Assembly (NCBI GenBank): GCA_022925895.1
Contig: JAKSYS010000392.1
Span: 1-57,661, forward strand
DNA length: 57,661 bases
Direction: 5' to 3'
Source: Fragilaria crotonensis
Taxonomy: Eukaryota; Bacillariophyta; Fragilariophyceae; Fragilariales; Fragilariaceae
In this document: positions 7,401 to 57,107 of the stretch, piece after piece
Numbering within the stretch: position 1 is the stretch's first letter
Layout of the letters: each line of letters starts with the position of its first letter
The notes under the pieces: model-generated
Database searches by the model: none
What the model was told of the DNA's origin: nothing
The model's input: only the letters and a program-made list of their open reading frames with translations
Position numbers and translations under genes: made by a program

Positions 7401-7851
7401 CGGCCAAATCCGGGTAGTTCTCCTCCGCATCCGTAGAGCAGTACTTCTCTTGTAAGATCGTCCATGCAGCATAGGGATCACCAGCACAACGTTCGATCAA
7501 CGCATAGGCCTTGTCAGTGCAGCTCGCAACCAAGTAAGTCCAAGCCGCAGCGCGCGCATTATACTTCCTGTTCTCCATGACCGTAGTAGGACGCATCGTA
7601 GAAGCCGCCATCGTAGGTTCACCCGTAGCTGGATCAGTCATCTCCACTCCAGGGACTTCAACTTCAGCGTTCTCAAACTCCTCGGCAGTCAACCCCTTGG
7701 TCAACTCAGCCTTGGTCAAAGCCAAGAGGAAGGACTTGGAGCTGGCAAGGGCAAGGGTCTTCCCTTCCCACGACCTGAACTTGGTCTCGTCGCCGTCGAA
7801 GGCGAAGGCCCTGATCGTAGAACCAAACGTAGACTCCTTGTACTCTTCCAT
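4441..7851 (-). CDS. Copia Gag-protease-integrase-RT(N) polyprotein
   Basis: A 1136-residue frame starts 30 bases inside the 5' LTR. The N-terminal part is Gag of the UBN2/copia type. Two CCHC zinc knuckles follow (CRNCGKIGHKAAEC near residue 264 and CYNCGEKGHYSNKC near 303), then the aspartic protease motif LLDSGAT near 441. Integrase has an HHCC finger (GHPD..CGSC, about 585-615) and DDE core residues in LFLDISG, RCDNAGE and NGVVERS (about 640-740). The start of RT follows (RTRWIFKQK, DVEAAFLNA). The frame stops at TAA just after ELPEGLLE, between the first RT catalytic Asp and the DD box. It is full length for copia up to that point. Confidence 0.95.
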   Translation of the reverse strand: MEEYKESTFGSTIRAFAFDGDETKFRSWEGKTLALASSKSFLLALTKAELTKGLTAEEFENAEVEVPGVEMTDPATGEPTMAASTMRPTTVMENRKYNARAAAWTYLVASCTDKAYALIERCAGDPYAAWTILQEKYCSTDAEENYPDLAEAFSACKLVEVKKDPELWFNDLDHLNMRIGRINAKYEKDELQMKSHIMNSMSTGYDPVIVKFRGELADTTLTKLRKEIVLQYKSLLKVKGKSTSESALMANVNKHPYKKFKGTCRNCGKIGHKAAECRSKAVEGIDEVGGKGKTSSDKSNVTCYNCGEKGHYSNKCTKPKKSKATSDPTSDMAMFVGVTRVVEKEWDEKDNQKERNGGEINNWQDSEFLSFEQTCGDIHTNFDVAFERPVIMTTTAEDVHTEIVESTALTVINHPRGNYAGHQVSNEFVGSAGTDNTEEWLLDSGATSGVTYDNTLMTDMRPSNRKIEIGNGDMVETLGQGTVTLTDNDGTLVSFTDVYYAPAFTKHIVSFRQLIENNWSLSKVTRNEFVWDTPMSTEPVRFKINNKDRLCYFEGTRMPGPHDRESVNSLTASPVTLDINVAHGLLGHPDTRTVNAMAAKQGWTLTGTVKPCGSCALAKARAKAVPKSTLTKAKAPGERLFLDISGPYSDSLNQNKYWLRIVDDHTRFSWDCFLPKKSGIHIPLAKLLKMNKAAGKPCKFLRCDNAGENESYVQELCSEYDVELEMTAPNTPQMNGVVERSFATCKNRAFATMYCAKLSLETQALLWPEAINTITKLTNSLPKSGETDDPYTKWYGPDTKKHRILDHLQPFGRVAYITNRSMIKAKLDPKSFKCIFVGYADDHSGDTYKFYNPATKQTILSRDVHQWMEWHGRITATDDLPLFEQLKLLTEDSVIVPASAIVPHVEDVDDDDVDDLLDMPTIMPRPSTEDVLPEATAIVDNPARRNLASSFSPAQTRSKSRAASGTTDATIRNYDTASMALSELILSATLQSDPQLGVPKDYKALLKLNDPTWFKSMHNELENFISRDAWEFLQRHKLPPGRKTLRTRWIFKQKVDGTKKSRTVIRGYEQIPGVDFVESYSPLASNTTIRVVLCIALKNGRTKKYWVTDMIDVEAAFLNALMDTDIFIELPEGLLE

Positions 7852-7881
7852 CGCAACAATCTAACTGATCGTTTTAAAACG

Positions 7882-8441
7882 TGTTAAATATCTCTGATTC
7901 CCAATACCGTAGACTCTCTATCCAGTAGTGAACTCGACGCTACTAGATCCTGTTTTCGAATATTGTGAGTTCTAGAAATTACACTTTCTAGATCTATTCC
8001 AATCTTGTTCCTGGACTCCAAAAGCTCCCAAGATTAACCACACATCTCATCCAGTACAAGCAGAACAAACACAAGACCACTTTCCTTAAGTCCAAGTTGG
8101 AACAAGACCAACTCCAAGACTGAAAGTAATCCCACTGGGTTAATCTAACCCCGGATCCATTAGTACATATGCCTATAAAGGCTTTCCAACACTTGCATGC
8201 CTCTTGGCATAAATCCTTATGTCAGGTCTTGGTCTTGGACTTGTTTGAACCTCTGTTCACAACTGTCCAACCAAGATCATCATCGTCCAGGACATAGCTA
8301 GCACACGATCCGATCGAACAGATAGTTTTCGTACTTGCAGTGTTGTCGCGTGGTACAGTAGCACCGTTGCCATCGACACCGTCATCGCATCGTACGGTAG
8401 GACCGTCGATATTACCAACAGTGGCACAGTATGATCTGACA
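7882..8441 (-). repeat. 5' LTR of copia element
   Basis: Partner of the repeat at 2637-3196. One difference was noticed: C at 8380 where the other LTR has T at 3135. In element sense this LTR holds the promoter. Its outer edge is only about 240 bases from the start of the divergently oriented gene at 8679. Confidence 0.93.
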
Positions 8442-8678: not shown

Positions 8679-9611
8679 ATGAAAAGCATACGGCAACGAA
8701 AAGCGGATCCATCCCCGTCCTCGCGCGGGACGAAATCGCATCCGCAAGAAGAAACGGTCCGCATCGTCATTGAACAGAAAGTCGATCGCCTTAATGATCA
8801 TGTCGAAGGCGATGATCTAGATCTGCATTCATATCATTCTACACCGCCGCAACCATTGCGGATGATACCCGACATGCGCTACTCAGAATTTCTGCAAGGG
8901 CAAACGTCAAATCGAATAGATGTATCAGCATTTCTGACCGGACCTCAATGCGCCTGTCACTGTATAGCCTTCAGCTGGATTGCTGTGGCGTTTCTGGTGA
9001 GTTGTTCCTGTTCACGACCCCGTTTTTTACGTGTCGACTCGATTTAGTGTTTGCATCCATTCATCCATACGTGCTTGTATGTAAAGCTATGAGAAGTGCA
9101 ATCGTATCTATCTGTTGAAACATATCTCGTTGCTCACTTTTGGAATGGAATCTTTCCCGACTAACGACAACTATGTACGTTGTGTAGCTATGGGTTGGAT
9201 TTTTGATTGACACGCAACCGATATTCATAAAGGGTGTTCAACCCAAGGGTATATTTGCTATTGAAGGAGTCACCTTCAATGTTCGAACCGAAGATCAACG
9301 ATTACCAGCATGTGCCACAGCGTAAGTCAATTGATTGTCAGAAAGGATGAGTTATTTTGGAGTACCGTCGTAAATTCACTCACTCGCTCACTTGCGTGCT
9401 TCCTCCCTCGTTGAAAACTCCACTTTCGCAACAACGTGAACAATAAACGATTCCTCGCAGTTACCACACCGCATACGCCTATCTCGTGACAATTCTCCTT
9501 TGCTTTGCATATCGACGAAATTGGTTCCAGCTGTTGGCCTCTAGATTACCGATTCGACTATTGCGACGACGATACACTTATTGTAATCAAATGCCTCCTG
9601 AGGAACGGTGA
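8679..9611 (+). CDS. Two-TM-helix protein of unknown family, copy 1 (3 exons)
   Basis: Exons 8679-8996, 9188-9321 and 9461-9611 join to 200 residues. Introns are GT-AG, and the first has a CTAAC branch point (GACTAACGACAAC) shared with copy 2. The N-terminal 85 or so residues are hydrophilic (IRQRKADPSPSSRG). A first hydrophobic segment is split by intron 1 (CIAFSWIAVAFL / LWVGFLI). A loop of about 40 residues (DTQPIFIKGVQPKG) follows, then a second segment YAYLVTILLCFAYRR and a short Arg-rich tail. The exon structure is supported by copy 2 (24275-25412), where the same splice sites and frames are kept and exon 2 is nearly identical. The family was not recognised; a small membrane protein is inferred. 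The start is the in-frame ATG shared with copy 2. A CAG/CAA-rich short upstream frame begins at about 8608 in another frame. Confidence 0.75.
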
Positions 9612-11264
9612 ACAGAGTTCGTAGTGACAGTGAGAAACGGAAAGAAAAAGCAGCGTTGGTCAGGAGTACAACTGTTGGGTATACTTCAGGTACCGTCTGA
9701 TGTCGTCTGTCGATGAAATGTCTTTATACGTCTCTGCTAAGAATGTCGAAGTTCGAGGGTGGGTGGGGACTACGCCTCACCAAGTGAGGAAGTTGCCTCA
9801 ATGTCCGTAATTTGCTTAATGGTTGCGACTCGCAACATCAATATAGCCGTATCAGAGGCAGATCCAGCATGTGTCGATTGCTGCGGCCAAAGCACTCACT
9901 TGAGGGTGCTGTGTAAAAGTGCACCGTTAACTCCTGTGAGACGTCCATTATACATCATTTGCATTAGGATCCTCATGACCATTGATGGATTAGAAATCAG
10001 CTTTTGCAGAAATGGTGACTGGCATTGCTGTTGCCACTCCTCCCACGAATGATTCGACTACATCAAAATCGCCACCAAAAGGACTCCAGCGATCAAAATT
10101 GTCAATAGTCAAGCATTATTTCCCAATTACAACAGGACAGGGTCAGCTACAGCATCGTTTTGCATATCGCTTTTGACACCTTTACATGAGATACCTTCTA
10201 CGAGTTTGAGTGCAAAACAAGTAATAAAAAGAACAATCACCTTGTTGGGATCGTGTAATGTGACTGTTGCCTTGTAAGCAACATGAAATGCTGACAAGAC
10301 ATCCTTGATGCGCAAAACTGCAACCTTTCCACCAATGATCAAACCTGGCAAGAATTCTTTCACCTTTCTGCATGTGCTTATATTGCAAGCCAAGGTTGAA
10401 TGCATGTGTCATTGCTTACGATGTCGTTCAAACATCTTGAGAGACTACGCTGCAGCACTTCCTGGATGATGGCTTAGACAACAATCACTATGAACAGCAG
10501 CACTTTACACACAGGGCTTTTGCATCAATGTGATGAAATAGAAGACAACTTTCGTGTCCTCCTTCAACTTCTGTTTCGGTAAGTTGTGATTAGATCATGC
10601 TGTTTCCTGCTGATCATTTTAGTGACAAATACATTTTCGTTCACTGTCCACATTTCATGCAAAATGGTGACCATTGATTGTTACCATTTTCATGCACTAT
10701 TGTCCTGATGCCATATTCACTACTACACCAGCACAAGCTATGCAGATATCAGTAGACAACATGACTGTAGTATTAAGTCTGCTGATGACGACAAACAATA
10801 GAGCAGCTACCTATAACAATGCTATTTATTGGTGCCCTTCACATTTCATCCTTGGCATCTTTGTCCCCAATCTCATTGTCAAACAGAACATGATGATTGT
10901 TATTTACAGGTCGATTGAACGTATTGCACTTGAACAAATGCAAATGCAGACAGATCGAACGAGGGTATGCACCATAGTCGCATTATATTCGAAGCCGAAT
11001 AACGAAGCCACATAACCTCGAATCCCGAACGCGCTTCTTCGATCGCAATGCTCGATAGAGATAATGCAATGCAAAGCCGTCCTACCCGTTGTTGAATCCG
11101 AACATCATTGCTTAAATTTTTAATTTCGTTCATTAGCTTATCAAAGCACTACAGCTATCAACTTTACAATCCCCTTTCCTTTACATTCCGCTTTGCTGTA
11201 CTTTTTGTTTCAGATAAGATGGAGAGAGCTCCGTTCCGACAAAAACACAACATGCTTTGTTTGA
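9612..11264. other. Gene-free stretch
   Basis: No gene recognised. Open frames near 10127-10412 (minus) and 10674-11015 (plus) lack domains and paralogues within the window. The texture (AT-rich, many CATGCA and TTGCAT words) resembles the unassigned stretch at 34.6-35.9 kb. Confidence 0.35.
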
Positions 11265-12671
11265 TTGTTGACAACTCATCATCTTTGCAAATCCCCATTG
11301 AACAATCTGACTAATCATTTCAGGCACGATCAAGCACGCTTTTTAAGATTCACAAGCGATATGGAATCCTCAACGTCTATCCCTCGGTTACTTCGTCCGC
11401 TCAGCTCCTCAGATGGAAATCAAAACCCGAAGAGTCATTTCCATAGTCTCATAATTCCCATGCCAGCATTCTTAACAATCAGTAGTGTTACTCACACCAC
11501 CCTCATACCTCTTGCTGCAGGAAATCTTGCACTCAACGCAATGAAGGTCTTGTCAATGAATGCCGTGTTGCTGCTTCCAGCAATCATTATCCCGTCTGGA
11601 CTCGGCAAGCAAGCCTCTATCAAGCCAGAGGAAGGCAAAGGCGGTCGTGTACGATGCGTAGCTACCATACGGCATGCAATTTTCTTCAGATAACGGACGC
11701 GCAAGTTCGTCGTCTGGCAACTGAGGTTAATCTCGGGAATACAGGATTGATTGGAACCATTCCCAGTCAGATTGGACTCCTCACAAATCTGAAGGTTTTG
11801 AAGTTACTAGGCTACGATAAATTGACTGGTGGGAAAATTCCGCGTGAGGTTGAAGGCACGAAGAATTTGCTGGAGTATTTGGACGTAAATGGAAATATCT
11901 TGGCAGGAAAGATTCCGCGTGAGATTGGACGCATGAAGAATCTGCAGTATTTGGACTTGAACCAAAATGGGCGGGATTGACTGGAAAAGTTCCGGGTGAG
12001 ATTGGACGAATGACAAACTTGGCGTATTTGACCGCGTTTGAGAATTCATTGGCTGACTGGCAAATTCTGCATGAGATTGGAATCATGAAGAATCTGAGAA
12101 TTTGACCTTAGGCTTGAATAAATTGAAAGGGAACATTCCATGAGAAATTGGACGGATGAAGAATCTGCCGTATTTTTGCTCTGGTGTCAATGCATTGACT
12201 GGGTATATTCCAAGTGAGATTGGACAGATGATGAATCTGGTCATTTTGGGCTTATGCATGAATGAGTCGAATTCCAACTTTAGTTGGACACATGACAAAT
12301 TTGCAGCATGTGGACTTGGGCGGTGATACATTGTTTTGAAAATCCCAAGTGATATCGGATGGATGACAAGTATGACATCCTTGGACTTATCTGAGAATGC
12401 AATGACTGGAGCCATTCCGAATCAGCTTGGACGTGTGACAAATTTGCAGAACTTGGACTTGTTTTCAAATTCATTGATTGGCAACGTTCAGAGTGAAATT
12501 GGACTCCTCACAAAGTTGTCCTATCTGTACTTTACTTGAATGCAGTGAATGGGGAAATTCCATCATGGTCCCTCTGCTCAAATGCAATCTTTATTGACTG
12601 GATGTGAGGAGCTCAGCACATGCAATTCAGGCTGTTGCAAATCAGGTGATACAAATATTGCCTGCCCTTAA
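11265..12671 (+). pseudogene. Decayed leucine-rich-repeat protein gene
   Basis: From about 11700 the sequence encodes LRRs of the plant/diatom SDS22-RLK type, with the recurring pattern IP.EIG..KNLQYLDL (for example TGTIPSQIGLLTNLKVL, AGKIPREIGRMKNLQYLD, TGAIPNQLGRVTNLQNL). At least nine repeats can be followed, but they lie in all three frames with stops, including a TGA where an Arg codon is expected near 12141. The end still shows a Cys-rich cap (GCEELSTCNSGCCKSG) and a stop at 12669-12671. Upstream, a frame from 11265 or 11345 contains a hydrophobic stretch and may be the N-terminal part. Nonsense changes as well as shifts indicate true decay. Confidence 0.8.
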
Positions 12672-14754
12672 AGGGGTGGTTGACAACATCCAATGATGAT
12701 ATTTAATCCGGCCCATTGTTGAAACCACTGCAGTTTTCCAACAAGAGGAGTCATCTTCTGCTGCGACTGAAAAACCTCCTGGCTGTATGCATATACTCGG
12801 AGAACGAGCTAGCAATAAGCGCTGTTACTAGGGACCAAGGGTGTTCATTTAAGGTATCCTGCCTGCTCGCCTTCTGTCGCCTTTTAATTACATTACTTGC
12901 ATGTAATGTAGTCGCCGTATTTGAGCTTCAAAACGGCGCCGGGGTGGATTGCGACAGTACGAAGGAATCTCGACTATACAGCGTGAATCTCTCAGGGCCG
13001 TTCTTATCGATGCGAAGATTTCGCAACCTTCTCAAGAAAAAGTCGTTTTCCACTTTCATTTTTTTTACGTCATACCCTTCCAGAAAAAACACGGCATCGC
13101 ATTCTTATCGAGTCGCACTTTCGCAAAACTCTTCGCAAAACGTTTTAAGAGTTCTCATCCTAGCTGCCAATGTTTCTGGTGCGATCAAGAATCTCATTGC
13201 TATCTCTACTTGTCCATGAAGCATGGGTACAGTCGTCCTCCCGTAATACGGAGAACTTGAACTAATACTCCCTTTCACCTATCGAATGACGAAGTAGCTC
13301 AAAGCAACTACTACGTCTCTTGATTGTCAGAATTTCTAAATTGGATTAAATGGTCTACAGTAATACACACGACAGATTCAATTACAAGAGTTTTCATGCG
13401 GCGTCATTCTCCCCGTGAGAGTAGCTTTTCACATTCTCTTTTTGTTGCAAAGTACCTAGTATGCTGGATGATTGGGAATTCAAAGGCATGCGCTTGCAAG
13501 GATTGTTGCTGTGCACGAGAGCGTCTTATTACAAATCAAATCGTGTGCATCCTTGGCAACTCCTTTGGAGACAAACTTCAAATCCACTCGAGAAATGCGA
13601 CGGTAGGCGTCACAGACATCGACTTGTCTGTCATGGTTGCCTCAATCCGCCATCTCCGGCAGCGCCAAATAATCAGGGTTATGCATACGGTGTTGCATCG
13701 TGAAGCTGGAGTATTTTGCTGACACCTCTTGAGAATAGCAACCTTTGCTTCTCTCCTGGCGGACAAGATAGATTTGCGTCAAGTCATAGGAGCCATACAT
13801 TCTCAGAATGTTCCGCTGTCAAAAGATACGATTGCTGAGCATCAATTTCACGACGTAGTTAGGCTTGACTCTGAACTTCTGCAATTGATATAATTGCAGA
13901 AAAATAAGCATCCCACAAAAAATGAGACATCAACTGAAGGAGAAGAGAGTAGTGCGGAGTGTGGAGCGACAGGAACTGGAAGTGACAGACATTATGGAGT
14001 TCATTCTCTCGATGTATTCGAGTCCATGATTGTATGCTTGGTACACACACACGTTGTCAACAAAAACAAAATCTTCGATTCTTCGATTGTCATCATTCTT
14101 ACCACGTGTCATCACCTGCGCTCACGATGGTCACCTAAACTGATAACCTTCTCAAAATGAGAATTCGGATATGAGCAGGTTATCAGCCCCGTTTGAGAAG
14201 GTTATCAGCCTGATTGACGTTTGCAACAAAATTGGCCAAACCGTGACGTGGCATGAAAATCGACATTTTCTTGCGAAGACTGCGAAATATTCGCATCGAT
14301 AAGAACGGCTCTCAGACTAAATGCAGCACTGTGAGTCACAGTCAGAGTACAAGTACTGCTGTACTCGGAGTAGTAGTTAATGTAGAGTTCCTACACCCGT
14401 ATCAACATTACGTAAAATCTACGTGACGTTGCGAGGCACGATTTTGAGGCCTCGACAAGGCGTTCGGGCCAAAAAATTAAGGCGCGCGCCTTCCATGTAC
14501 AGGTACAAGATGCACAAGTACCAGTACCAGGACTAAAAGGAAAGGTCCAACCACGCACCTCTGTTTGGTATTAATTGCATGTAGAAGCTACGAGAAGAAA
14601 CGTGATTTTGCCGGACCTGACACGACCTGATGGCTATAACGGAAGACGGTACCTGGTACCTGGTACAACAGTACCGGTACTCCGAACTCCGAACACGTCC
14701 GGCTAAACTCACTCGAATGTTGCGAAGAGCTGATAGCCGCACGCCGCACGTCAT
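12672..14754. other. Intergenic stretch with inverted repeats
   Basis: No gene recognised. The stretch holds an imperfect 63-bp inverted repeat (12991-13053 against 14253-14315, roughly 80% match by eye) enclosing about 1.2 kb, and a 17-bp hairpin at 14140-14208. The open frames between them have no recognisable domain. It may be a decayed fold-back or TIR element. Confidence 0.45.
14140..14208. repeat. 17-bp inverted repeat / hairpin
   Basis: CTGATAACCTTCTCAAA at 14140-14156 is exactly reverse-complementary to 14192-14208, with a 35-base loop. GGTTATCAG is repeated once more inside the loop (14178-14186). Function unknown. Confidence 0.8.
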
Positions 14755-14994
14755 TTGCAGATAAGACAATAAGCCAATGCAACAGTAGACGGTACTTCTT
14801 TACTATCGCATTAACTCACTGTCTATCCGTACAGTCGCTTCGTAGTGTATCACTGACGGCCCTAGGACAGTCAACTCCTCTAAACGGTCAGTTGACGGAA
14901 AACAACACCTCTCTGATGGAAATCGCTCACTTGTTTGTATCTGATCGATTTGAATGCGTTTGTGATGGCACATCTGCAAATGCATTTTTTCGCT
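14755..14994 (+). repeat. YR element left terminal repeat A1
   Basis: 240 bp from TTGCAGATAAGACAATAAGC to CATTTTTTCGCT, recurring without visible change at 23361-23600. The match ends abruptly at both sides, setting the left end of the element at 14755. Confidence 0.93.
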
Positions 14995-16078
14995 TCAGTA
15001 ACTTACGATGTCACGACGCCAATGTGCATGGACGTCTATTAACCTATAACTTGTGAGTTCAAGTGTTCGAGACCTCGAGAGGTACAACATTTTGTGTACA
15101 TCAAGTAACATGTATTTCGCGGCGCGGCTACGATAGCGCGCACCCCCCCCCAAATTTCTTTATTGGCAATGATCGAGACCAAACAAGGTACACCATTCGA
15201 CCACCCATTACATTCCTGATCCCTGCCAAGTACGGCATATCTACCAATAACTACGGTATGAATGACGATCGAGACCTAGAAGGTACATCGAACCAAAACT
15301 TAAAGACCAAACTTCTCTGTTACACTGATCGTAAGCACGCACTTAAAACAGACAAGAATTCCTATTTTACGCAAGAAATGCAACAGTAGCGGAGTGGGCG
15401 GAGAAGCAGAGACGCATCCCCCCCCTTTCTTAAAAAACAACACCCGCTTAGTTGGTTGCTATCTTACCATCACAGCCGCCATTCTCGAAAATTCAAAAAC
15501 GAAACACACAATCGTGAACAGTCTTGTAATCGTGATTCGATTCAAGATCCAAAAAGTTATATACCAAGTAAGGATAATCGTACATACCTGTGGGAAAGAC
15601 CAAAAACATGCTCCAAAGAAATGTCTTAGAATGACCAACTACCAGTGATACACCTATGTAAATATTCGGACTGAGCATGGCGCAACCACAGTAACAATTT
15701 GTTCTTTCCTCGTCAAAATATAAAAACTCCATCCGACGACAGTAACACTTAAAGCTCATTCACATTTCCCAATAAATACCATTAATTAACGATCAGCTCT
15801 CAATCTAATCCGATTGCGCATTTGAAACACACTCCTTGTCGTCCAATAAACTTAGAGTACTCGCAATACACAGCCATGTTTCATGGTGATTTTACTTAAC
15901 AAATGTCAGTCGGGTCCAGAAACACATGGTATGCGTTAAAAAACTTATCACCCTAAACACAAAAGTTTCGAGTCACACCCACTCACCATAGTCCAACAGT
16001 ATAACCGATTTCGATCTCACAATCCGTCGAATTTGTCGATAAGCTTATCAAGAAACACCAAACCTACTTTCTACGAAG
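14995..16078 (+). promoter_or_regulatory. Long leader of the YR element with spaced motif
   Basis: About 1.1 kb separates A1 from ORF1 with no convincing gene. Three copies of TCGAGACC-N4/5-AGGTACA occur at 15067-15086, 15173-15192 and 15269-15287, about 100 bases apart. Two poly-C runs (about 15145 and 15418) are present. The region probably holds promoter, leader and possibly packaging or priming signals; this role is inferred. Confidence 0.5.
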
Positions 16079-18583
16079 ATGTCGTTGATCGTTGCTGCCC
16101 GGGACCTATCCCTTCGCGAACTCGCACTCCAAGCTGCTGCTTCTGCCAACCTTTCGAGTTTTGCAGCTGCAGGCGAACCAAACCCAGTTCATGCTGAAAA
16201 AATTGTTTCAACCTTCGCCAAGACGTGCACCCCGCTTACAAGACTTGCTATTCTCTGTGATACCAATGTGACCAAGCAGCTCGTCTTTATCCAGCCTAAC
16301 TTCAAGATGGCAACATTGTCGTGCCCTTTTCTCACTGTCGGGAGAAACAACGAAGACGTCTTCGCCGGTAGCCTTGGAGACTCCATGGACCTCCTCTGCC
16401 CAGTCACGATCAGGATGAAGGATGTCAGGGGCGACGTCATTAGCATCTGCGAATCCCGCCCAGATGTTAACAAGTACAACCTGGCTACATCGGAAACAGA
16501 CCCCTTAGAGGAGGAAGGATTGCCACCACCAGAAGGCCAAGACCCAATCCCTCCAGGACCTGATCGTATCATGATCAACCTCAACGTCGCAACTAAGGAA
16601 CCGTGCTTTGTTGCAATCCCCAAAGTCTATCCTGTCACTAGCGGAGCCGCTATTCAAACCGAACATGACATGTCGGTCATTACTACCCCTGCCCTCGAAA
16701 ACTACAGTTGTGATAGCATGGAAGCTGTTTGGTACGAATCTATGAGGTATGGCATTCGCCATATGGACAACTACTCCATTCAAGCTACCAACACCCTATT
16801 TGACTACGCGGGCGTCGAAAAACGTGAATTTATCCATGAAAATCGGAATCTCGCTTCACGTTTCACTACAATTGTGACTTTCTTGACACCAGATGAACCT
16901 TTGTATCACGTCGTTGCCCAGACAGTCCGCGCGGAAAAAGACAAGGTAACCATGGCTTACGGTACAAAAATTCTCAATCTCATGCCACCCAACCGAGTTG
17001 GTAATACACCAGCTCACAATATTGCAGGAAACCCCATCGACCTCACGACGCAAGACCCAACGGGTATCTCGACATTGCTCGAAGGGTTAGCAAAAGCAAT
17101 CTCCGAATCGTCGTCGAAGACGCTTACGGGTACAGAACGCGAAAAAGCAAGCGAGGCTGAAGATGCAAAACGATTTTATAGCATTTTGTTCGCATCTATC
17201 AAAGATACCATTGATGAAGACGGCATTCCGACCAAGTCATTTGTGAAGGCCAAGATCCACCCCCTTTTTATTCCTGTTCTCACAGCCAACAAGAATTCAA
17301 AGGCAACTAAAGCTATGCAAGAAGCAGTCGAATCAATGGCCGCAGAGTTGAGTACCCATGATGATCGTTATGCGTCAGCGAGCAATCTATTCCCGCGCAT
17401 GTTCGATCAACCGCTCACCGCAGCGTTGCGTACTGGGCAATGGGAATATCAGCATACAGTTTTGAATCCCGAAGGTATCAAAACCAATGTTGGTATCCAC
17501 CATTTTGCGCCACCAAGAACATGGAGCGCAAGCTACAAGACACGTCAAGAAGGGGAAACCAAACTTACTCAGCAAGAGCAGGTGGAAGAAGACAGGAGCC
17601 GCATTGGGGCAAAAGCCACTGATTTATACCACATGGGTTGCATGGGGACTTTGCCGGACATCAACGAAATGATTGGTAACTTTTATGCTATTATGTGCGT
17701 TATCATCGAGTTCGAACGCGATCGCCCGCCGCTCATTTGGACCGAAGTGGCAAAGTTTGCGCAAATCTTGCGTACAAACGAAGGCCGCCAATGGGCTGCC
17801 CTTCACCGCAACATGCGCGAAGTTCTCTCCAATGTCGGACAAGACATCCAATCTACTATTGCAGGGTTTGTGTCAGAAGCTCGGAAGACCAACTACAAAA
17901 CTGCCATGAAGAATGGTAACGAGATTTCTCCGTGCATATTCGACATGGCACAGCACCAAGGAACCGAACTCCGCCGTAACTTCCAAGGCACGATCCTGAC
18001 TATGACAGCAGGAACATACAAAGAGGCATCTATTATTTACAAGCTCTTCCAGCCGGAGCAACAGAATAAAGAGAACTCACGCAAGCGAGAGGCCAACACA
18101 GAATTCTCAGCCCAGAATAGTACTCCACCAGGAAACCGTAACCGACCTTTCCAGCAGTCAGCAGGAGGAGGAGGAGGTAACCGTAACACTCCACCAAACA
18201 GCCAACAACAACACACCAACCACGTCACGCCTAACAACAGCCCAACAGCTAGCGGCGGACAAGCCTTACCAGGGAAAACGGTGTTTGTCCACAGCAACCC
18301 AGCCCCGTCGAAGTTACCCCATCCTGGCGCCATCTTCCCCCATCCAAACAGGCCAAACCAATTCACAGTCCTCTGCTGCCGGAGCGCATACGACGGACGC
18401 ACATGCCCATTAGCAAACTGCGCATACTACCACTTTCCTTCTCAACTCAACCAAGTCAACCGTGACCTCAAAGACAAGCTGAAAACCTGGGTGATCGATA
18501 ACCAAGACAAGGTTAGCTGGCACCCTGACGTCGCAAATTGGGCAAACCCCCCAGGTAATGTCGCGAACAACAACAGGCCATAA
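16079..18583 (+). CDS. YR retrotransposon ORF1 (Gag-like, CCCH finger)
   Basis: An 834-residue protein occupies the Gag position, first after the leader. The N-terminal 700 residues are globular with no family I recognise. Residues about 680-765 are a low-complexity Asn/Gln/Pro/Gly linker (SAGGGGGNRNTPPNSQQQ). Near the C terminus, CCRSAYDGRTCPLANCAYYH fits C-X8-C-X4-C-X3-H, a CCCH zinc finger. CCCH fingers bind RNA, so it may replace the CCHC knuckle of retroviral Gag; that is an inference. The start ATG at 16079 follows an A-rich context and is the first in frame. The frame is unbroken. Confidence 0.88.
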   Translation: MSLIVAARDLSLRELALQAAASANLSSFAAAGEPNPVHAEKIVSTFAKTCTPLTRLAILCDTNVTKQLVFIQPNFKMATLSCPFLTVGRNNEDVFAGSLGDSMDLLCPVTIRMKDVRGDVISICESRPDVNKYNLATSETDPLEEEGLPPPEGQDPIPPGPDRIMINLNVATKEPCFVAIPKVYPVTSGAAIQTEHDMSVITTPALENYSCDSMEAVWYESMRYGIRHMDNYSIQATNTLFDYAGVEKREFIHENRNLASRFTTIVTFLTPDEPLYHVVAQTVRAEKDKVTMAYGTKILNLMPPNRVGNTPAHNIAGNPIDLTTQDPTGISTLLEGLAKAISESSSKTLTGTEREKASEAEDAKRFYSILFASIKDTIDEDGIPTKSFVKAKIHPLFIPVLTANKNSKATKAMQEAVESMAAELSTHDDRYASASNLFPRMFDQPLTAALRTGQWEYQHTVLNPEGIKTNVGIHHFAPPRTWSASYKTRQEGETKLTQQEQVEEDRSRIGAKATDLYHMGCMGTLPDINEMIGNFYAIMCVIIEFERDRPPLIWTEVAKFAQILRTNEGRQWAALHRNMREVLSNVGQDIQSTIAGFVSEARKTNYKTAMKNGNEISPCIFDMAQHQGTELRRNFQGTILTMTAGTYKEASIIYKLFQPEQQNKENSRKREANTEFSAQNSTPPGNRNRPFQQSAGGGGGNRNTPPNSQQQHTNHVTPNNSPTASGGQALPGKTVFVHSNPAPSKLPHPGAIFPHPNRPNQFTVLCCRSAYDGRTCPLANCAYYHFPSQLNQVNRDLKDKLKTWVIDNQDKVSWHPDVANWANPPGNVANNNRP

Positions 18584-18908
18584 AAAATCATTCGAAACGT
18601 CCTTACCTGACTAACGACTACCAACAAATAATCCAATAGTTGCAGCTTTCTTTCCAAACCGCCGCCTCCAAACTCCACATGCAAAACCTTCAAGGTTATT
18701 AGTAATCCCTATCACCACCGACGAAGTAGTTCAGCAAGGAGTCGATTGCACCGTACAACAACCGAACGGTACCAGCACACTACCAGCACGAACAATCGCA
18801 CCCAGTTTAGCACATTGTAGGGACAATCAACGCACTACTCCCGCAATTTGGATCCCCAAACAATGTCAGGGCAGAGATAATGAATCGACGGTGAGGACCA
18901 ACCTTGAA

Positions 18909-21548
18909 ATGTCAATCCCAGTCACATCACAATACCTCCATCAAGCGGTAAAGACAGGCGACCTGCATCCGCATGCAATTGAACTTCCCAGCGACAATTT
19001 GCACGCCGACAATTGGGGGACGGGAACCCTCACTTCCAAAAGACTTGATGCATTTGCTTCATTTGTGTTGCCGCCAAGCATCCAAAAACACTTAACCCAA
19101 CCATTTGGTAAGGATTCTCTATCTCACTCGTTCGTGTCGCAAAAATGTTTTCGTCATGTCCTACTCCCTTTGTTGAAAAGCGGTTTCTTGTCTTGTCGAG
19201 CCACAAAAAACCTTGAAAAAGCATCCCGACGAGCAAGGCAACTCCAAATGTTACGTAAGAAATATGCTCATGTGAATTTCTTGGAGCTCCAAGGGTTCCA
19301 AGAAGATTGGGACTCAACGACAACGATTCGTAGCGATTGGAAAGCCATGACATCTGCCTGTCTTCTTCACTTTGACGGAGACGTTGCATCAATGGTGCGA
19401 TGGATTGGAGGCCCTCATACGAACGCACACCTCAATCCTAGCGAGATTCTCGCAAAACTAAAGCATGTCGTGGACGACGATATCTTTATGGACGTCCAGC
19501 GCATCCTCACCTTGGGAGCGCCAGCATTGTGCCAAGCAGAGGCATCGGAAGAGAATTTCCAAGCCTTCCTGAAGTACGGTAACCATGCGTCAGTGACCAA
19601 TAACCAACATGTGTTCAAAAGCACGATAGTGAAACAGAGTCGCCGGGGCCTTACCTTGATCATGGACCCAAAGTTAATCTACTTCACATTGAACGCCCAC
19701 CTTTCACCCCAAGGTTTGGTGGATGTTCTTCACTGCCGTCGGAAACCAAGACCGTTATCCGATAGCAGTTTCCGTCCGTGGCCAGGAGCAATGGCAATTA
19801 ATGACTGGACTGACAAACGAAATGAACCCAAACTCCACTTCGCAAAATCATTTTTGAATTTTTGTATTTGGCAATGGAATTTGGCAATAACTTACCCCGA
19901 CTCGGACAGATACACGGGAGATGATGACGTACAGTGCGCATTCCCTCGCATAAAGTATAACCCGCAGCTTGTTGCGATGCACAGTTCCATTTCCAACGGG
20001 ACGTTGAGCATGAATACCGGGCTGACATTTGGAGATAACACAAGTCCATCCAACTGGGAACCCATCGCTAGGGCCCGCCAGCAACTAGCAAGCCATTTGT
20101 GGCACACACCCGACATTCTGCAAAGAGCGCAACGATTTCTCCCCGAGTTTAAATTTGCACCACCAGCAACTCTAGCCGAGAAGGAACGATTTGCTCTGGC
20201 TATCCCAGACTCTATCAACAAAGGAGTCAATGACGAAAATGGTAACCGCCGAGCACCAACATACGACCATCATGTTGATGATAACATGTATGCCGATGTT
20301 GCAGATCTCTTGCCTCGAGCCGCCGCTGCCAGTGTCATAGCCCTTTACGAGATTGTTGGGTACCCAGATGGAAGGATTCCGGATCCCATCTCATGGGAGA
20401 AGTTCGAAACCACACACACACACATCAGACGTGTCGTTGGTTGGGAAGTAAATACGCGCGACTTAACCTTCGCACTTCCGGCAGACAAACGGGCCTCGAT
20501 TGCAGCAACACTTTTAGAATGGACCGCTCGAACAAGCTGTACTATCATGGAGGCAGCTGAATTACATGGCACTCTTGCGGATGCATCCCGAGCTAATCGC
20601 AAAGGAAGGGCAATGTTTTTCGGTTTCCAGAACGCCTTTCGCCGCGCCATTCGCAGTCGTTATCATCAAGTTCGAGGGTTCTACTCACGCACCAACCGGG
20701 CAAACAAATTTTCTCAGCAGTTACCAAAGCATCTTCACCATCGACTCGACTCCCTTGTTGCTCGAGACATGGCAGCTCTACTATGGCACACAAAAACCAA
20801 ACTCCCGATATCACACCAAGTTCACCGCGAGCTCCACAGTTTGTACTTGTACATGGCAGATACTACCAGACCATGGGCAATCAGTATTGGCCATATCATC
20901 CCCCGAGATGCGCAATTCACCAGTCTAGGCGACGCATGTGGATTAGGAGGAGGAGCATTCTGTCACGAGCTATCATTTTGGTTTGACGTTGTGTGGTCGG
21001 ATCGTACCCGTCACTTGTTTGCAACAAAACAAGTCCACATCAACATCTTGGAATTCATTGTTGTTTTGTTGCAACTGGCAGCTGCCATCACTCGCACAGA
21101 ACTTGGGTCCACTTCCACAAACGGCCGCATCCCACCCTTGTCAAAACTCGTTATCAGATCTGATAACTCACCTACCTGTCATTGGGCCCATAAAGTATCC
21201 GCTAAATCGGAGCGCGGCCAATTGTTTGTAAGCATGTATGCCAACCTTATCGACCGGACAAACCTCACTATTGAATGCTCCCATATTGCCGGCAGCAATA
21301 ACCACCTTGCCGATTTCATTTCACGACCACCCCCTGATACTATCTCTCACCATACTCGCTGCCAACAGATATTTCACGAGGAGCCGAGGCTGCAGTGTTA
21401 TCACTTTTTCCGACCGCATCCCGAACTCTTATCCTGCCTGGAGTCCAGGCTGTCCACCGCACACTGGCTGGAAAGCCCGCCACTTCCAAAAGTGCTAGGA
21501 CGATTCGAAATCGTCGACTCCACTACTTCCTCTTCTGTTTTCATATGA
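18909..21548 (+). CDS. YR retrotransposon ORF2: reverse transcriptase-RNase H
   Basis: The frame is open from before 18891; the first ATG is 18909, giving 879 residues. RT motif A reads YTGDDDVQCAF (about residue 333) and the catalytic DD box is HHVDDNMYAD (about 453), an unusual HVDD in place of YxDD. RNase H of the DIRS type follows, with Asp in GDACGLGGG (about 674), Glu in INILEF (about 710), Asp in RSDNSPT (about 750) and the closing AGSNNHLADFISR (about 793). The stop TGA overlaps the likely ORF3 start as ATGA (21545-21548), which suggests coupled translation. ORF1 ends 325 bases upstream in another frame, so how ORF2 is started is unclear. Confidence 0.9.
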   Translation: MSIPVTSQYLHQAVKTGDLHPHAIELPSDNLHADNWGTGTLTSKRLDAFASFVLPPSIQKHLTQPFGKDSLSHSFVSQKCFRHVLLPLLKSGFLSCRATKNLEKASRRARQLQMLRKKYAHVNFLELQGFQEDWDSTTTIRSDWKAMTSACLLHFDGDVASMVRWIGGPHTNAHLNPSEILAKLKHVVDDDIFMDVQRILTLGAPALCQAEASEENFQAFLKYGNHASVTNNQHVFKSTIVKQSRRGLTLIMDPKLIYFTLNAHLSPQGLVDVLHCRRKPRPLSDSSFRPWPGAMAINDWTDKRNEPKLHFAKSFLNFCIWQWNLAITYPDSDRYTGDDDVQCAFPRIKYNPQLVAMHSSISNGTLSMNTGLTFGDNTSPSNWEPIARARQQLASHLWHTPDILQRAQRFLPEFKFAPPATLAEKERFALAIPDSINKGVNDENGNRRAPTYDHHVDDNMYADVADLLPRAAAASVIALYEIVGYPDGRIPDPISWEKFETTHTHIRRVVGWEVNTRDLTFALPADKRASIAATLLEWTARTSCTIMEAAELHGTLADASRANRKGRAMFFGFQNAFRRAIRSRYHQVRGFYSRTNRANKFSQQLPKHLHHRLDSLVARDMAALLWHTKTKLPISHQVHRELHSLYLYMADTTRPWAISIGHIIPRDAQFTSLGDACGLGGGAFCHELSFWFDVVWSDRTRHLFATKQVHINILEFIVVLLQLAAAITRTELGSTSTNGRIPPLSKLVIRSDNSPTCHWAHKVSAKSERGQLFVSMYANLIDRTNLTIECSHIAGSNNHLADFISRPPPDTISHHTRCQQIFHEEPRLQCYHFFRPHPELLSCLESRLSTAHWLESPPLPKVLGRFEIVDSTTSSSVFI

Positions 21549-22600
21549 AACTTACCGACGATTGGTTACTCGAGAACCAACCGCAACCGAGAGCCAATTT
21601 CCAATTAGCCATGTATGCAACGCATCTTGCTACCGGTTCCTCACTCCATTTCAGGACCATCAAAGCGAGCACTATTGCCAGTTACCTGCACGATGTCGCA
21701 ACCTTTTTAGGCCGATTTCGACTCATCGACCCGAGATTTGTATCAACTGCTGATACAACGCTTGCCCCTGCAATAGCACAAGTGCTAGCGGAACAGAAAC
21801 GATGGGAATTAATCCCAAACCGCCGTGAACCGTTCACTGTCGATCTCTTCATTACCATTGCAGATATCGCCGCAACCAGAATGGATGATTGTTGTTTAGA
21901 GGCAGCAATGGCTAATTGGACACTCTGCAACTTATACGCTGGCTGCCGCGGCATTGAATGGGCCCAAACCAAAACAACCAGTCGTGCCTTCCAAGAATTT
22001 CACCGCAACCGATTTGGTAATGCATACGCGTTCACCCTCGCCGATGTTGCATGCTTCTCGGAAAATTCAAGCCCGATACCAATTGCACATGCATTAGCCG
22101 TCCCTACACAAGTTGAGAAGGTCAAACTGCGATTCGAGGAACAAAAAAATGGTGAGAATGGTGAATGGAAGTTATTTACTCGCAACCGCAACAAACCGAG
22201 GCTTTGTTTTGTTACCCATTTCCTGCACATTTTGGCCAGACACAATCGCTTAACCCAGTCGTCGCCGACCCACCCACTCAGCGTATATCGTGGTGCCAAC
22301 CAGACCGTTTATAACATCACGTCAACAGATATCGAACTCATCATACGTCAAGCCGCATCGAAGTTGTATAATTTAGATCCAACGATCCATCGCAAAACCC
22401 TCCAATCATGGTCAAGCCATTCTCTTCGTGTGGGAGCCTGTACACTATTGTACTCCCAGGGTTTCAGCGAAATGGAAATAAAATATCTCCTGCGGTGGAA
22501 AAGTAACGCCTTTATGACTTACCTCCGCAACTTAGCGGTAACGTCGCGACGCCAAAATGAGGCTCTCAATGATATTAGTGAAATCCCTAATTTTGTGTAA
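21545..22600 (+). CDS. YR retrotransposon ORF3: tyrosine recombinase
   Basis: 351 residues from the ATG of the ATGA overlap; the frame is open back to 21395, so a longer start overlapping ORF2 is possible. The C-terminal half has the tyrosine-recombinase catalytic set: first Arg in AGCRGIEW (about residue 135), H-x-x-R in HSLRVGACTLLYSQG (about 292), then LLRWKSNAFMTYLRN with the nucleophilic Tyr (about 326). These enzymes insert circular cDNA by site-specific recombination, consistent with the absence of a DDE integrase and of a target duplication. The N-terminal half looks like the SAM-like core-binding domain. Confidence 0.9.
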   Translation: MKLTDDWLLENQPQPRANFQLAMYATHLATGSSLHFRTIKASTIASYLHDVATFLGRFRLIDPRFVSTADTTLAPAIAQVLAEQKRWELIPNRREPFTVDLFITIADIAATRMDDCCLEAAMANWTLCNLYAGCRGIEWAQTKTTSRAFQEFHRNRFGNAYAFTLADVACFSENSSPIPIAHALAVPTQVEKVKLRFEEQKNGENGEWKLFTRNRNKPRLCFVTHFLHILARHNRLTQSSPTHPLSVYRGANQTVYNITSTDIELIIRQAASKLYNLDPTIHRKTLQSWSSHSLRVGACTLLYSQGFSEMEIKYLLRWKSNAFMTYLRNLAVTSRRQNEALNDISEIPNFV

Positions 22601-23126
22601 GACCGATTCACAACATTTTGCACCGCACATGTATCGCACATCACATCCCACATCACACATCAAACATTTCAACTAGAAGATTACGAACGTTAATTCGCAG
22701 TTTCATTCTGCTACAGTCAAAGTGACTGAATTTTTGTGTAAGACCGATTTGCAACTTTCCATTGAACACATACTTGTACCTGGTGTTCCCAGTACCCTTA
22801 CTACAGTATGGGAGTACCCCAGTCAGAAACAAAATTCGTTTCTCCTACTAAAAGATTTGAGTATGATACAGTACCTGGTACATGCCCTTGTATCGTACAT
22901 GTATCATACCAGGTACTGTACTGTACCTGCAATGGGCCACACCCACACCACCCCAGGAGCATAAGGCCCCCTTCTCCTGTCTCTTTGTCTTGCTCGATCC
23001 AGTTATAACAACCCAACTAAATTTTTTTTTTTTTTCTTTTCCTTTTTTCTGGCTGTCTGCCGCCGAACGATATGGCTCCAAACCCTGCTACACTGCGTAT
23101 AACAGCGTCAGCAGACGACATGGGCA
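22601..23126 (+). other. 3' untranslated part of YR element
   Basis: No gene. The last bases of ORF3 (TTTTGTGTAAGACCGATT, 22591-22608) recur at 22732-22749. An inverted pair CAGTACCTGGTA / TACCAGGTACTG lies at about 22869-22920. A run of about 15 T followed by pyrimidines lies at 23022-23048, just upstream of B1. These may be termination, polyadenylation or priming signals. Confidence 0.45.
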
Positions 23127-23360
23127 GGCCAGTGCTTTAGTGAACCATCCGGGAGCCGTTAGACTCCTCGGATATTTAACGTCATAACAACTACGTTTTT
23201 AGCCCAATACCACTGCAGACACATAGCACTAGCTAGTAAGCGTGCACTACTGTGGCATTTCGGCACATGCGTAGTCGTGCAGACTATCACTCTGTAGCAC
23301 TTCCGATATCGCTCGACGTTGCAGTGCAGCTGAGGCGACTTCTGGGAATCCACAGGATTC
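23127..23360 (+). repeat. YR element internal repeat B1
   Basis: 234 bp from GGCCAGTGCTTTAG to CCACAGGATTC, identical by eye to B2 (23630-23863). It directly abuts A2 with no spacer. Confidence 0.93.
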
Positions 23361-23600
23361 TTGCAGATAAGACAATAAGCCAATGCAACAGTAGACGGTA
23401 CTTCTTTACTATCGCATTAACTCACTGTCTATCCGTACAGTCGCTTCGTAGTGTATCACTGACGGCCCTAGGACAGTCAACTCCTCTAAACGGTCAGTTG
23501 ACGGAAAACAACACCTCTCTGATGGAAATCGCTCACTTGTTTGTATCTGATCGATTTGAATGCGTTTGTGATGGCACATCTGCAAATGCATTTTTTCGCT
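23361..23600 (+). repeat. YR element internal repeat A2
   Basis: 240-bp copy of A1. Its start follows B1 immediately. 29 unrelated bases (AACCCACCACCATCCCCAGC...) separate its end from B2. Confidence 0.93.
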
Positions 23601-23629
23601 AACCCACCACCATCCCCAGCGACCACGCC

Positions 23630-23863
23630 GGCCAGTGCTTTAGTGAACCATCCGGGAGCCGTTAGACTCCTCGGATATTTAACGTCATAACAACTACGTT
23701 TTTAGCCCAATACCACTGCAGACACATAGCACTAGCTAGTAAGCGTGCACTACTGTGGCATTTCGGCACATGCGTAGTCGTGCAGACTATCACTCTGTAG
23801 CACTTCCGATATCGCTCGACGTTGCAGTGCAGCTGAGGCGACTTCTGGGAATCCACAGGATTC
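23630..23863 (+). repeat. YR element right terminal repeat B2
   Basis: Second copy of the 234-bp B repeat. The match to B1 stops after GGATTC, placing the right end of the element at 23863. Confidence 0.93.
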
Positions 23864-24126
23864 CGTCCATATTGTTGGAGTCCAGTACGTATCTATGTAG
23901 CTATCATAGCGGTGCAGCTACTTTGACTGTGATACCCGAGTACTGAGTAGTACTGGCGGTACGAGAAAGAGACAATACTGCAATACTGTAGTGCCCACTG
24001 GTTAGTTCGGTCACTGAGACAACGGACTATGGGAGGGTGCATGCAAGCAACCCTCACCACAATTGCTGACTCCTGCGTTGCATTGCATGAGCGTGCATTA
24101 GTTCCACGAAACAAACATTGGGTGGA

Positions 24127-24171
24127 GCATTCGGCATTCGGCATTCGGCATTCGGCATTCGGCATTCGGCA
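24127..24171. repeat. GCATTCG heptamer microsatellite
   Basis: Six perfect 7-bp units GCATTCG followed by GCAGGTAGCACGCGACAAG, upstream of two-TM gene copy 2. The equivalent site before copy 1 (8513) has three units, so the array has changed length since the duplication. Confidence 0.85.
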
Positions 24172-24274
24172 GGTAGCACGCGACAAGACAAGCTCGAACC
24201 AACAGCGCTTGAACATTGTTTGAATCAAATAAATGCATCAACATCATCGTCGAGTTCGAGTTCGTCCGCTTGCC

Positions 24275-25412
24275 ATGACGAGCATACGCCAACGAAAAGC
24301 TGATCCGTCCCCGTCCTCTCGTGGGACGATGTATCCGCAAGAAGAAATGGTCCGCATCGTCATTGAACAGGAAGATGACCACGACAACGATCGTGTCGAA
24401 CGCGATGACCTAGAACTGCATTCATATTATTACACACCGCAACCATCGCGAATGATACCTGACAAGCGCTACAAAGAATTTCTGCAAGGGCAAAGAGCAA
24501 AACGAAAAAATGTATCTGTATATCCGACCGGACCTGAATGTGCCTCTCACTGTATAGCCTTCAGCTGGATTGCTGTGGCGTTTCTGGTAAGGTTTGTTCG
24601 TGTTTTATGACACTGTTTTTTTTGGCGGATCGACTCGATGTAGACTTTACGTCAAGTCATCCACGAATGCTTGTATGTATCGATATCATCGTCTTTTGAA
24701 ACGCATCTCATTGCTCGCTTTGGGCATCCGAACTTTCCCGACTAACGACAACTACCTATGTTGTATAGCTATGGGTTGGATTTTTGATTGACACGCAACC
24801 GATATTCATAAAGGGTGTTCAACCCAAGGGTGCTTATGCTATTGAGGGAGTCACCTTCAATGTTCGAACCGAAGATCAACGGTTACCAGCATGTGCTACA
24901 GCGTAAGTCGATTGATAGCCAGAATGGATGCCTTTTTTGTTTTTGAGTACCTCTGTGCATTCACTTCCCACGCTCACTTGCTCACGTGCTCACTTCCTCG
25001 TCTGCATCCGCTTTCGCAACAACGTATACAATACATGATTCCTTACAGTTATTACACAGCATATGCCTATCTCTTGACAGTGCTCCTTTGCTTTGCATAT
25101 CGACGGAATTGGTTCCAGCTGTTGGCCTCGAAATTACCCATTCGAATATTGCTACGACGAAATGATTACAGTGATATTCCAGATCATGATGCGGATCATC
25201 ATCGTCATAGTGCAAAACATTTTGATGCTGCTACGAGCGGTGGATTGCCTCTCTTTCATCAATCTAGTCGACGACGACGACATTGTAGTGGTGCAGCATC
25301 GGCAATGTGGAATCGATGCTTCATACTGTTGCGGAATGTATGGCAACGGTGGTGTTGTGGAATGCGATTCTCACTGCCTGGACGAGATAATACCAAACGA
25401 CGGAGGGAGTAA
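24275..25412 (+). CDS. Two-TM-helix protein of unknown family, copy 2 (3 exons)
   Basis: Exons 24275-24586, 24769-24902 and 25049-25412 join to 269 residues. Splice sites, phases and the CTAAC branch point match copy 1 at 8679. Exon 2 (LWVGFLIDTQPIFIKGVQPKG...) is almost unchanged at DNA level and the TM segments are kept (FSWIAVAFLLWVGFLI; YAYLLTVLLCFAYRR). The C-terminal tail differs: copy 1 stops after about 20 basic residues, whereas copy 2 runs on for about 90 with His/Asp-rich (DHDADHHRH) and Arg/Cys-rich parts. A start 42 bases upstream (24233) is also in frame; 24275 is chosen because it is shared by both copies. Function unknown. Confidence 0.75.
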
Positions 25413-32670: not shown

Positions 32671-34319
32671 CTACTGAGTAGGACAGCCTACACGGATAAA
32701 AGTTTTCATCAGCGAAGTCAAAAACCAATGGGCACGGCTATTTACATGGTTAAAACTAAGCCGATCTTGTGCGCCGCATTCATCAGACTCAAACCTATTA
32801 TCATGGAAAGAGCCGAGGACAGAGCGAGGACCCTGACTCATTTGTAGTACCTTGCTCTGGACACACATCGTTTGGACGGGATCCCAACCTGTGATTTCGG
32901 CACTCTGGAGGAAGGCCTGTACGAGAAGTAATCCTAGTGCCTGCATGAAAGGGTGGAAAAGGCTTCCAAAAGCAAAGTGTTGCCATTTCGGTCGCTCGGA
33001 GCGAGCATCCTTGGGGCTATCTTCTGAGTTGATTTTGGAACACTTGAACCAAACGTTGCATTGAGAAGATGCGTCGATCGTGTGAGAGTCCATCTGGCGG
33101 TCGGGAGGGAGGCCTACGAGAGATTTTATTTCAAGACCCTGCTCTTCGCGGTCGGAGAGGATGTGGATACGATCGTCTTGAGATTTCGTTTGCTCGACCA
33201 ACACGGTTTTGAGGTGGTCGAGATCTTCCAGAGAAAACCTTAACTGTTGATTCGTAGGTAAACCTATCGGATAAGGTGCGATACAACACCCGTAGGTTGG
33301 CTCAAGGGCGTCATCTGGCATGTGATCGCGGCTGCCACAAGAAAGGCCCGTTTGATTTGTATTTTCTTCATCCTGCTCGTTGTGGGCAAAGAGGCTTTGG
33401 ACATGGTCGTCTTGAGATTGCATTTGCTCGATCAACAGGAAATCGAGGTCTTCTGGAGGATAAGGATAGAATTCGGTATGAGTTGCTTCGATGGGTTGGT
33501 TTGCGTTATCTGACATTTGATGGTGGCTATCAGAAGAAAGGCCTCCGTGAAACGCACTTCCTTGATCCTGCTCGTTGTGGTCAAAGAGGTTTTGGACAAG
33601 GTCGAATTGTGATTCCATGTGCTCGGTTAACAGGAAATCGAGATCTTCTGGAGGATAAGTATAAAATTCGACATGGCTTGCGTCGGTAGGTTGGTTTGAC
33701 TTATCTGACAAGTGATGGCGGCTGACAGGAGGATGGCCATTTTGTAAACTAAATGCAACAGCATCGTTGATGATGTTTCGTTTACATTCAGTGCCGTCGA
33801 CCTCCTCCAAAGTCATTGCAAGGATGTTCAGGTTCTCTTGCTCCAACGCAGACTTGAGAAGGCCAAGCGGGCTTCCTCGTTGAGAGCGTATTTGATGATG
33901 TACAGCGTGTCGGACGAGCAAAGCCGTGAATATCTCGCTGCATCATTGTCCCATTCGAAGAACTTTCTTGGCTTGTGGCAGTCCCAAAATGCTTGGGCGA
34001 TATCTTCAACGGAGTGAGTGTCTTGTGGTAAATCCTTGATGCACTTTTGAATCAAAAGTTTAAACAGTTGATTTCCTGGATGTTCGTTTGTTGACATTGC
34101 GTTACCGCAGAAGATGACATCATCGGTTGTTGGCGAGGCCGAGACGGCAGAAAGTCTTGCACCTTGTGCAACGGTGCGAGTAGTGCTTTCAAAAATAGCC
34201 TGTACTGTGAGGTGGTCGTGAGGCAAGGATGTTAATGATCTCTGTTGTAACATCGCTGTCAAAAACATCATTTGAAAGTCACTCTTACCCATTGTTTTTG
34301 AGTTGCAATTTGAGTGCAT
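32671..34319 (-). CDS. DUF6824 protein with long amino-acid tandem repeats, copy A (one apparent frameshift)
   Basis: The first exon, 34319-34289 (ending ATG G), is followed by a probable 84-bp GT-AG intron (34288-34205), phase 1, placed as in copies B and C. The DUF6824 core reads TDDVIFCGNAMSTNEHPGNQ, then LFKLLIQKC, a variant of the diatom signature DVL.GRGG.TN.HPGN. A shift at a CCC run near 33865 moves the reading to the frame that ends at 32671. That part has three tandem units of about 65-75 residues built on HHLSD.NQPTDASH, YPPEDLDFLL and SQDD.VQ.LF.HNEQ, then a unique tail. The molecular function of DUF6824 is not established; a nuclear or DNA-binding role has only been guessed. Confidence 0.75.
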
Positions 34320-53735: not shown

Positions 53736-53820
53736 CAGCCATTCATCATCATCAACAGCATCACCCTCTCCCTCCCCCTTCCCTTTTTGACAGTCCCTGA
53801 CACTGATTTCTTGTCTCATT

Positions 53821-57027: not shown

Positions 57028-57107
57028 TAGCTCTTAAAGTAGTTCAAGTTGCATGTATATGTGGTGTTGTGGCTGTTGCTCTTGATCATGAAGAACAGCT
57101 ACTTCAT

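Follow-up and report, generated by a model that had tools for sequence, protein, structure and literature searches.

The window analysed here, i.e., the whole 57,661-nucleotide stretch of contig JAKSYS010000392.1 (positions 1 to 57,661, forward strand; GenBank assembly GCA_022925895.1) of the diatom Fragilaria crotonensis, contains at positions 14755-23863 a 9,109-bp element that is very probably a tyrosine-recombinase (YR) retrotransposon of Ngaro-type architecture, complete and, as it appears, of recent insertion. Its three open reading frames (ORFs) are framed by split direct repeats in the order A1-ORFs-B1|A2-gap-B2, all features being given for the plus strand. The left terminal repeat A1 (14755-14994) is identical to the internal repeat A2 (23361-23600) at 240 of 240 positions, and the internal repeat B1 (23127-23360) is identical to the right terminal repeat B2 (23630-23863) at 234 of 234; zero differences at these 474 sites set a 95% upper bound of 0.63% on the divergence of the pairs. 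For B, the repeat finder had returned 237 nucleotides (nt) with one mismatched base (99.578%), the exact boundaries giving 234 nt. B1 passes directly into A2 at the junction GGATTC|TTGCAG, with no base between them, such that A2 together with the end of B1 would represent a stored copy of a circle junction. A2 and B2 are separated by a spacer of 29 nt (23601-23629). Both B repeats close with the palindrome GAATCC-NNN-GGATTC (23346-23360 in B1, 23849-23863 in B2), the last six bases of the element thus being GGATTC. An earlier note, made from the letters of the window, had proposed this four-block structure with the same boundaries, the abutting B1 and A2, the 29-base distance and three open frames; alignment of the repeat pairs and reading of the sequence bear it out throughout, the YR frame running without stops to 22600. 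The young age suggested there is backed by the identical repeats and the intact frames, and it is plausible from the sequence that the element is active. Against this it has to be set that no circle, transcript or transposition event has been observed, and that a near-identical sibling was not found in the assembly, where the nearest copy (C504) is 84% identical in the YR; the identical repeats are therefore what speaks for recent activity of the window subfamily.

The F. crotonensis genome (62,107,879 bases on 881 contigs, to which the genome searches refer; copies are named by contig label) holds dozens of relatives of the element. The YR yields 105 match rows, 19 of which (including the window copy) cover at least 390 of 401 residues without internal stop. 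The 13 copies for which both ends were read, again including the window copy and belonging to several subfamilies, all share the layout A1...B1|A2-gap-B2 and the termini, with TTGCAG at the left (TTACAG in C17) and GAATCC-NNN-GGATTC at the right. The arms of the palindrome are invariant in 14 copies (these 13 and C437), and its loop reads ATA in eleven, ACA in two and TGT in one of them. The pattern of the A start occurs 74 times in the genome compared to 0 times for the reversed control; because of this and of the common layout of 13 copies, chance is excluded. Substitutions between A1 and A2 are absent in 10 of the 13 copies (with 1, 2 and 19 gap columns in C765, C191 and C17, respectively) and number 1 in C829, 3 in C241 and 12 in C482. 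Between the window (23361-23863) and C504, A2/B2 are identical at 90.5% of the aligned sites (with 17 gap columns besides), whereas the YR differs at 69% of its synonymous sites; the terminal repeats being far closer, the ends are therefore either constrained or exchanged between subfamilies. The leader from A1 to ORF1 (14995-16078) contains no ORF of at least 120 amino acids and matches two other copies at only 71-73% over about 230 nt.

Concerning the proteins, ORF1 (16079-18583, 834 amino acids) is Gag-like by its position and carries a C-terminal Cys/Cys/Cys/His cluster (C766, C776, C781, H785). Neither a Pfam or NCBIfam match nor a fold match was obtained for it, in agreement with the earlier note, which recognised no family in this frame. 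ORF2 (18891-21548, 885 amino acids, its frame open from 18615) is, as judged from its predicted structure, a reverse transcriptase (RT) with RNase H: the AlphaFold model (mean predicted local distance difference test, pLDDT, 88.8; predicted template modelling score, pTM, 0.87) matches the RT and RNase H of Ty3, and the folds closest to its RT-RNase H are the RTs of Ty3 and foamy virus. The fold matches place the RT domain at residues ~204-527 (19500-20471), with the motif HVDD at 461-464, and the RNase H domain at residues ~675-818 (20913-21344), after which 67 residues follow. HVDD, to which the earlier note had drawn attention, is conserved across 60 aligned sequences, both Asp residues being invariant and H and V each conserved in at least 90%. 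The RT and RNase H models of Pfam matched none of the seven ORF2 proteins tested (window, P0001, P0037, P0043, P0073, P0089, P0120).

ORF3 (21545-22600; 351 amino acids from the ATG at 21545, its frame open from 21338) bears the tyrosine-recombinase signature R...HxxR..W..Y with conserved catalytic residues and is taken, on this motif evidence, to encode a YR in place of a DDE integrase, for which the element frames gave no Pfam match. Its ATG at 21545 overlaps the ORF2 stop as ATGA, and translation most likely starts there. In nine of twelve pairs of copies the ratio of nonsynonymous to synonymous divergence (dN/dS) of the YR lies between 0.033 and 0.295, with saturated synonymous sites in the other three, which indicates purifying selection. 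At the YR stop and behind it lie two near-identical 27-nt stretches (89%; 22591-22617 and 22732-22758), possibly a 3' regulatory motif. Some observations do not sit well with these assignments: whole-chain Foldseek TM-scores of ORF2, normalised by query length, are 0.29 or less in the top ten, perhaps owing to a different domain arrangement; the YR matches are sub-threshold (PF00589 with E 6e-4 and 20 bits compared to a cut-off of 27.1; Cre with E 0.07 over the HxxR-Y region); and the ATGA overlap is found in only 11 of the 19 copies scanned.

By repeat architecture and domain content, compared with published criteria, the element can be classified as Ngaro-type; the general kind is thus already known, and this lineage is unnamed. 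In the passages available of PMC4157794, a methyltransferase is ascribed to DIRS1 and PAT and none to Ngaro and VIPER, whose internal repeats follow the YR. Of the PAT/Ngaro end structure proposed in the earlier note, the Ngaro part holds, with no methyltransferase match and with internal repeats downstream of the YR, and the PAT part has to be dropped on account of the methyltransferase; this domain gave no Pfam match in the three frames, with the reservation that Pfam misses the RT too. The organization is shared by Ngaro-like elements (order DIRS), including those of Cafeteria burkhardae, for which excerpts of PMC8547959 likewise describe A1-[ORFs]-B1A2B2, a Gag-like ORF1, an ORF2 with RT-RNase H, a YR as ORF3 and isolated AB repeats. 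Despite this similarity there are differences: Ngaro elements are typically about 6 kb long, compared to 9.1 kb here with an HVDD active site, and the Cafeteria ORF2 matches Pfam PF00078 and PF17919 according to the same excerpts, whereas none of the seven ORF2 proteins here does so. About one in four virophage elements of Cafeteria is interrupted by a Ngaro; a scan of viral contigs for relatives of the diatom element gave 59 pattern hits, none of which was confirmed.

Split direct repeats are also found in the PAT elements (Pat1, Toc, Kangaroo), with a zinc finger in the Gag of Pat1 (PMC4157794, in part); PAT belongs to the methyltransferase-bearing DIRS group, whereas in the diatom element 67 residues without methyltransferase match follow the RNase H. 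DIRS1 resembles it in the modelled circle intermediate, which has been seen for DIRS-1, and in YR insertion at a short junction free of target-site duplication (TSD), as far as the consulted parts of PMC5633606 and PMC3266345 describe it. It differs in its inverted terminal repeats, its internal complementary regions, its methyltransferase and a junction of 3 bp with identical target. No inverted pair of at least 25 nt was found within 14000-25000, and a DIRS1-like element was rejected. VIPER and TATE are YR retroelements as well, the former without methyltransferase (PMC4157794, in part), but have kinetoplastid hosts. The CryptonS elements of diatoms and oomycetes are eukaryotic YR elements whose 5-6-bp terminal direct repeats (PMC3212892, in part) recall the pair of hexamers found here; the two hexamers of the diatom element are only partly alike, however, and a Crypton, being a DNA transposon without RT, was rejected in view of the RT-RNase H. 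Finally, a Ty3-type long terminal repeat (LTR) retrotransposon might be considered, with LTRs rearranged into the A and B blocks by recombination and the YR frame as a bystander, as the RT-RNase H fold is closest to Ty3 and foamy virus RT. This is next to impossible in view of the four-block order, which recurs in every one of the 13 copies, from several subfamilies, and in one copy of a second clade (see below), the missing integrase match, the missing TSD at two empty sites and the purifying selection on the YR; with neither a DDE integrase match nor a TSD, an LTR retrotransposon is largely refuted.

Empty sites, which the earlier note had suggested to seek in related strains, were searched within the same genome by matching 16 joined flanks of 70+70 bases (13 full copies, three solo units), and two of them (C368, C829) have such sites. 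For C368, 11 places in the genome match the joined flank across the joint, two of these being 100% identical along 141 bases; ungapped matches to C340 and C697 (198 of 200 positions) and to C684 (97% over 194) are obtained with 100+100 bases. The joined flank of C829 matches C453 at 128 of 129 bases (100 left and 29 right), also without gap. The C368 and C829 insertions are thus precise, without duplication or loss of target sequence. For the other 14 joined flanks the genome search gave no match readable as an empty site; there are a few rows that cross the joint by some bases, two of them, in C17 and C306, because the left flank resembles the B end. The yield of only two in 16 weighs against a general reading, as do the facts that the C368 sites are paralogous repeats and that the C829 match stops 29 bases to the right of the joint.

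In all 13 copies the right hexamer is GGATTC and the left one, preceding A1, is not. The left hexamer is demonstrated to be target sequence for C368 (GGTGAG) and C829 (GGAACT) and probably is so in the remaining copies; in the window it reads CGTCAT (14749-14754) and is regarded as target sequence that was retained on this side. This left hexamer exhibits a preference for GGATTC-like sequences, and its likeness to the hexamer closing B is what is new here. In a discovery set of 31 distinct left flanks (the motif having first been noticed in 27 of them), it matches GGATTC at 2.39 positions, compared to 1.50 ± 0.19 for positions drawn at random from the window (0 of 5000 draws) and to 1.16-1.77 in registers shifted by 1-24 bases. 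At positions -7 to -30 of these 31 left flanks no position reached p < 0.05, nor did any in the right flanks, where likeness to TTGCAG was 1.19 compared to 1.50. For validation, 24 further A starts were fetched from the 74 pattern hits; two were junctions, and the 22 used gave a weaker signal (GGAT 1.55 of 4 positions compared to 1.00, 22 of 10000 draws; GGATTC 2.00 compared to 1.50, 238 of 10000). All 53 flanks (52 distinct) have a mean of 2.23 GGATTC positions compared to 1.50 (0 of 10000).

This suggests that strands are exchanged at the B|A junction of a circle within about the 6 bp of GGATTC. Several findings weigh against it. None of the 53 flanks equals GGATTC; among all 4096 hexamers GGATTT fits best and GGATTC takes rank 52; target position -1 favours T and not the C of GGATTC (C in 4 of 53); and among the 22 validation flanks a register shifted by one base to the left scores 2.14, slightly above the 2.00 of the predicted one. 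The T at -1 and the missing exact GGATTC may mean that the overlap spans fewer than 6 bp or that the preference represents a recognition motif. These same findings fit an alternative in which the preference reflects a recognition motif of the YR or a local property of the DNA, with the exchange taking place elsewhere, e.g., exactly at the A1 boundary. We regard this as quite possible, though not as the probable case: the preference is limited to -6 to -1, which is the register of the B end, and GGATTT shares five of six positions with that end.

A cycle may be outlined as follows. According to the model for this group, RNA that starts in A1 and ends in B2 would be copied by the RT; with the internal B1|A2 block as template, both ends would be restored and joined into a circle with the junction GGATTC|TTGCAG; and strand exchange by the YR would then take place between this junction and a site in the chromosome. 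For DIRS-1, parts of PMC5633606 and PMC3266345 describe experimental verification of the circle and a model of integration at the junction without TSD. We further propose that the exchange would occur within about the 6 bp GGATTC, that targets with partial identity (GG[A/T]T) would be favoured, and that the product would carry the target hexamer at the left and GGATTC at the right without duplication, which fits C368 and C829.

The fixed side of GGATTC calls for a directed resolution, either by biased mismatch repair or by exchange of one strand. If both strands of a duplex with a mismatched overlap were exchanged, the two arrangements would be expected side by side in the absence of biased repair, whereas GGATTC at the right with another hexamer at the left in 13 of 13 copies is as expected from one-strand exchange followed by replication. 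The palindrome at the B end could moreover fold in single-stranded complementary DNA (cDNA) into a recombinase site. Integron cassettes are recombined from folded single-stranded sites, and the diatom element might similarly recombine from a circle of cDNA that is single-stranded or half-exchanged. We consider this very unlikely; if true, YR retroelements would be a eukaryotic counterpart of folded-site recombination.

Derivatives of the element are also present. In C368 an extra A-gap-B unit follows B2 in tandem, joined at GGATTC|TTGCAG; solo A-gap-B units are found on C50, C238, C229 and other contigs; and in five copies (C120, C62, C787, C252, C493) A2-B2 is missing, B1 being followed by unrelated sequence. 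A1 was read in three of these five (C120, C62, C493); C252 has it in fragments, and in C787 it was not read. Neither A or B as unrelated genomic repeats nor ORF copies devoid of them, which the earlier note had named as findings that would speak against its model, were seen: the solos are A-gap-B derivatives, and the five copies keep B1. Solo units and shortened copies might be due to the YR, which would have resolved a circle carrying two B|A junctions or acted by excision, and not to homologous recombination between A1 and A2 or B1 and B2: the unit in C368 is added exactly at the B|A junction, and both reciprocal products, the solos and the copies ending at B1, are present. The same sequences are, however, expected from homologous recombination between identical direct repeats, and the isolated AB repeats of Cafeteria Ngaro elements are ascribed to recombination in an excerpt of PMC8547959, so that an origin by the YR appears rather unlikely.

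A second, distant clade of YR retrotransposons exists in the same genome (C492 ~8949-16367 and relatives, at least 55 match rows). The one copy examined has the same order A1-ORFs-B1|A2-B2. In this clade, too, RT-RNase H is followed by YR, and by profile it aligns to ORF2 in hhalign with 99.3% probability (E 3e-20, 523 columns, 22% identity); it differs in its active site (FIDD) and its junction (CGCGTCG|TTACTAG). Two protein stretches of this clade gave no Pfam RT match.

Further repeats surround the element in the window. Its left flank includes an 80-bp dispersed repeat (14542-14624) with about 40 matches listed elsewhere in the genome, mostly 86-94% identical. A Copia-type LTR retrotransposon is situated on the minus strand at 2634-8178, with identical 300-nt LTRs (2634-2933, 7879-8178); its RVT_2 match is divided between two frames (2977-4410, 4441-7851), so that the coding region looks broken. 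At 53214-57624, inverted repeats (197 nt 100%, 197 nt 99%) flank a frame of 537 amino acids with a match to Ulp1 protease (Peptidase_C48), perhaps a DNA transposon with long terminal inverted repeats and a C48 gene. Diverged repeats, some of them in tandem, are common to 33096-34125 and 40946-44001, about 7-8 kb apart.

No description of this element was recognised in the diatom and general literature on YR or DIRS/Ngaro elements, as judged from titles, beginnings of abstracts and passages, most subscription papers and Repbase lying outside this coverage. In the parts consulted, mention is made of DIRS/Ngaro-like elements in the brown alga Ectocarpus (PMC3145265), 'Gypsy/DIRS1' appears as one annotation class in the diatom Chaetoceros (PMC8613185), and transposable-element transcripts are described as abundant at high pH in F. 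crotonensis (PMC9732472). Target choice and joining by the circles of YR retrotransposons have mostly been modelled and little measured. As one genome provides dozens of copies with exact ends along with empty sites and reciprocal products of recombination, the crossover point and the strand outcome become directly testable. As two YR clades of one diatom escape the Pfam RT models in the proteins tested, routine annotation of diatoms and plankton may miss such elements.

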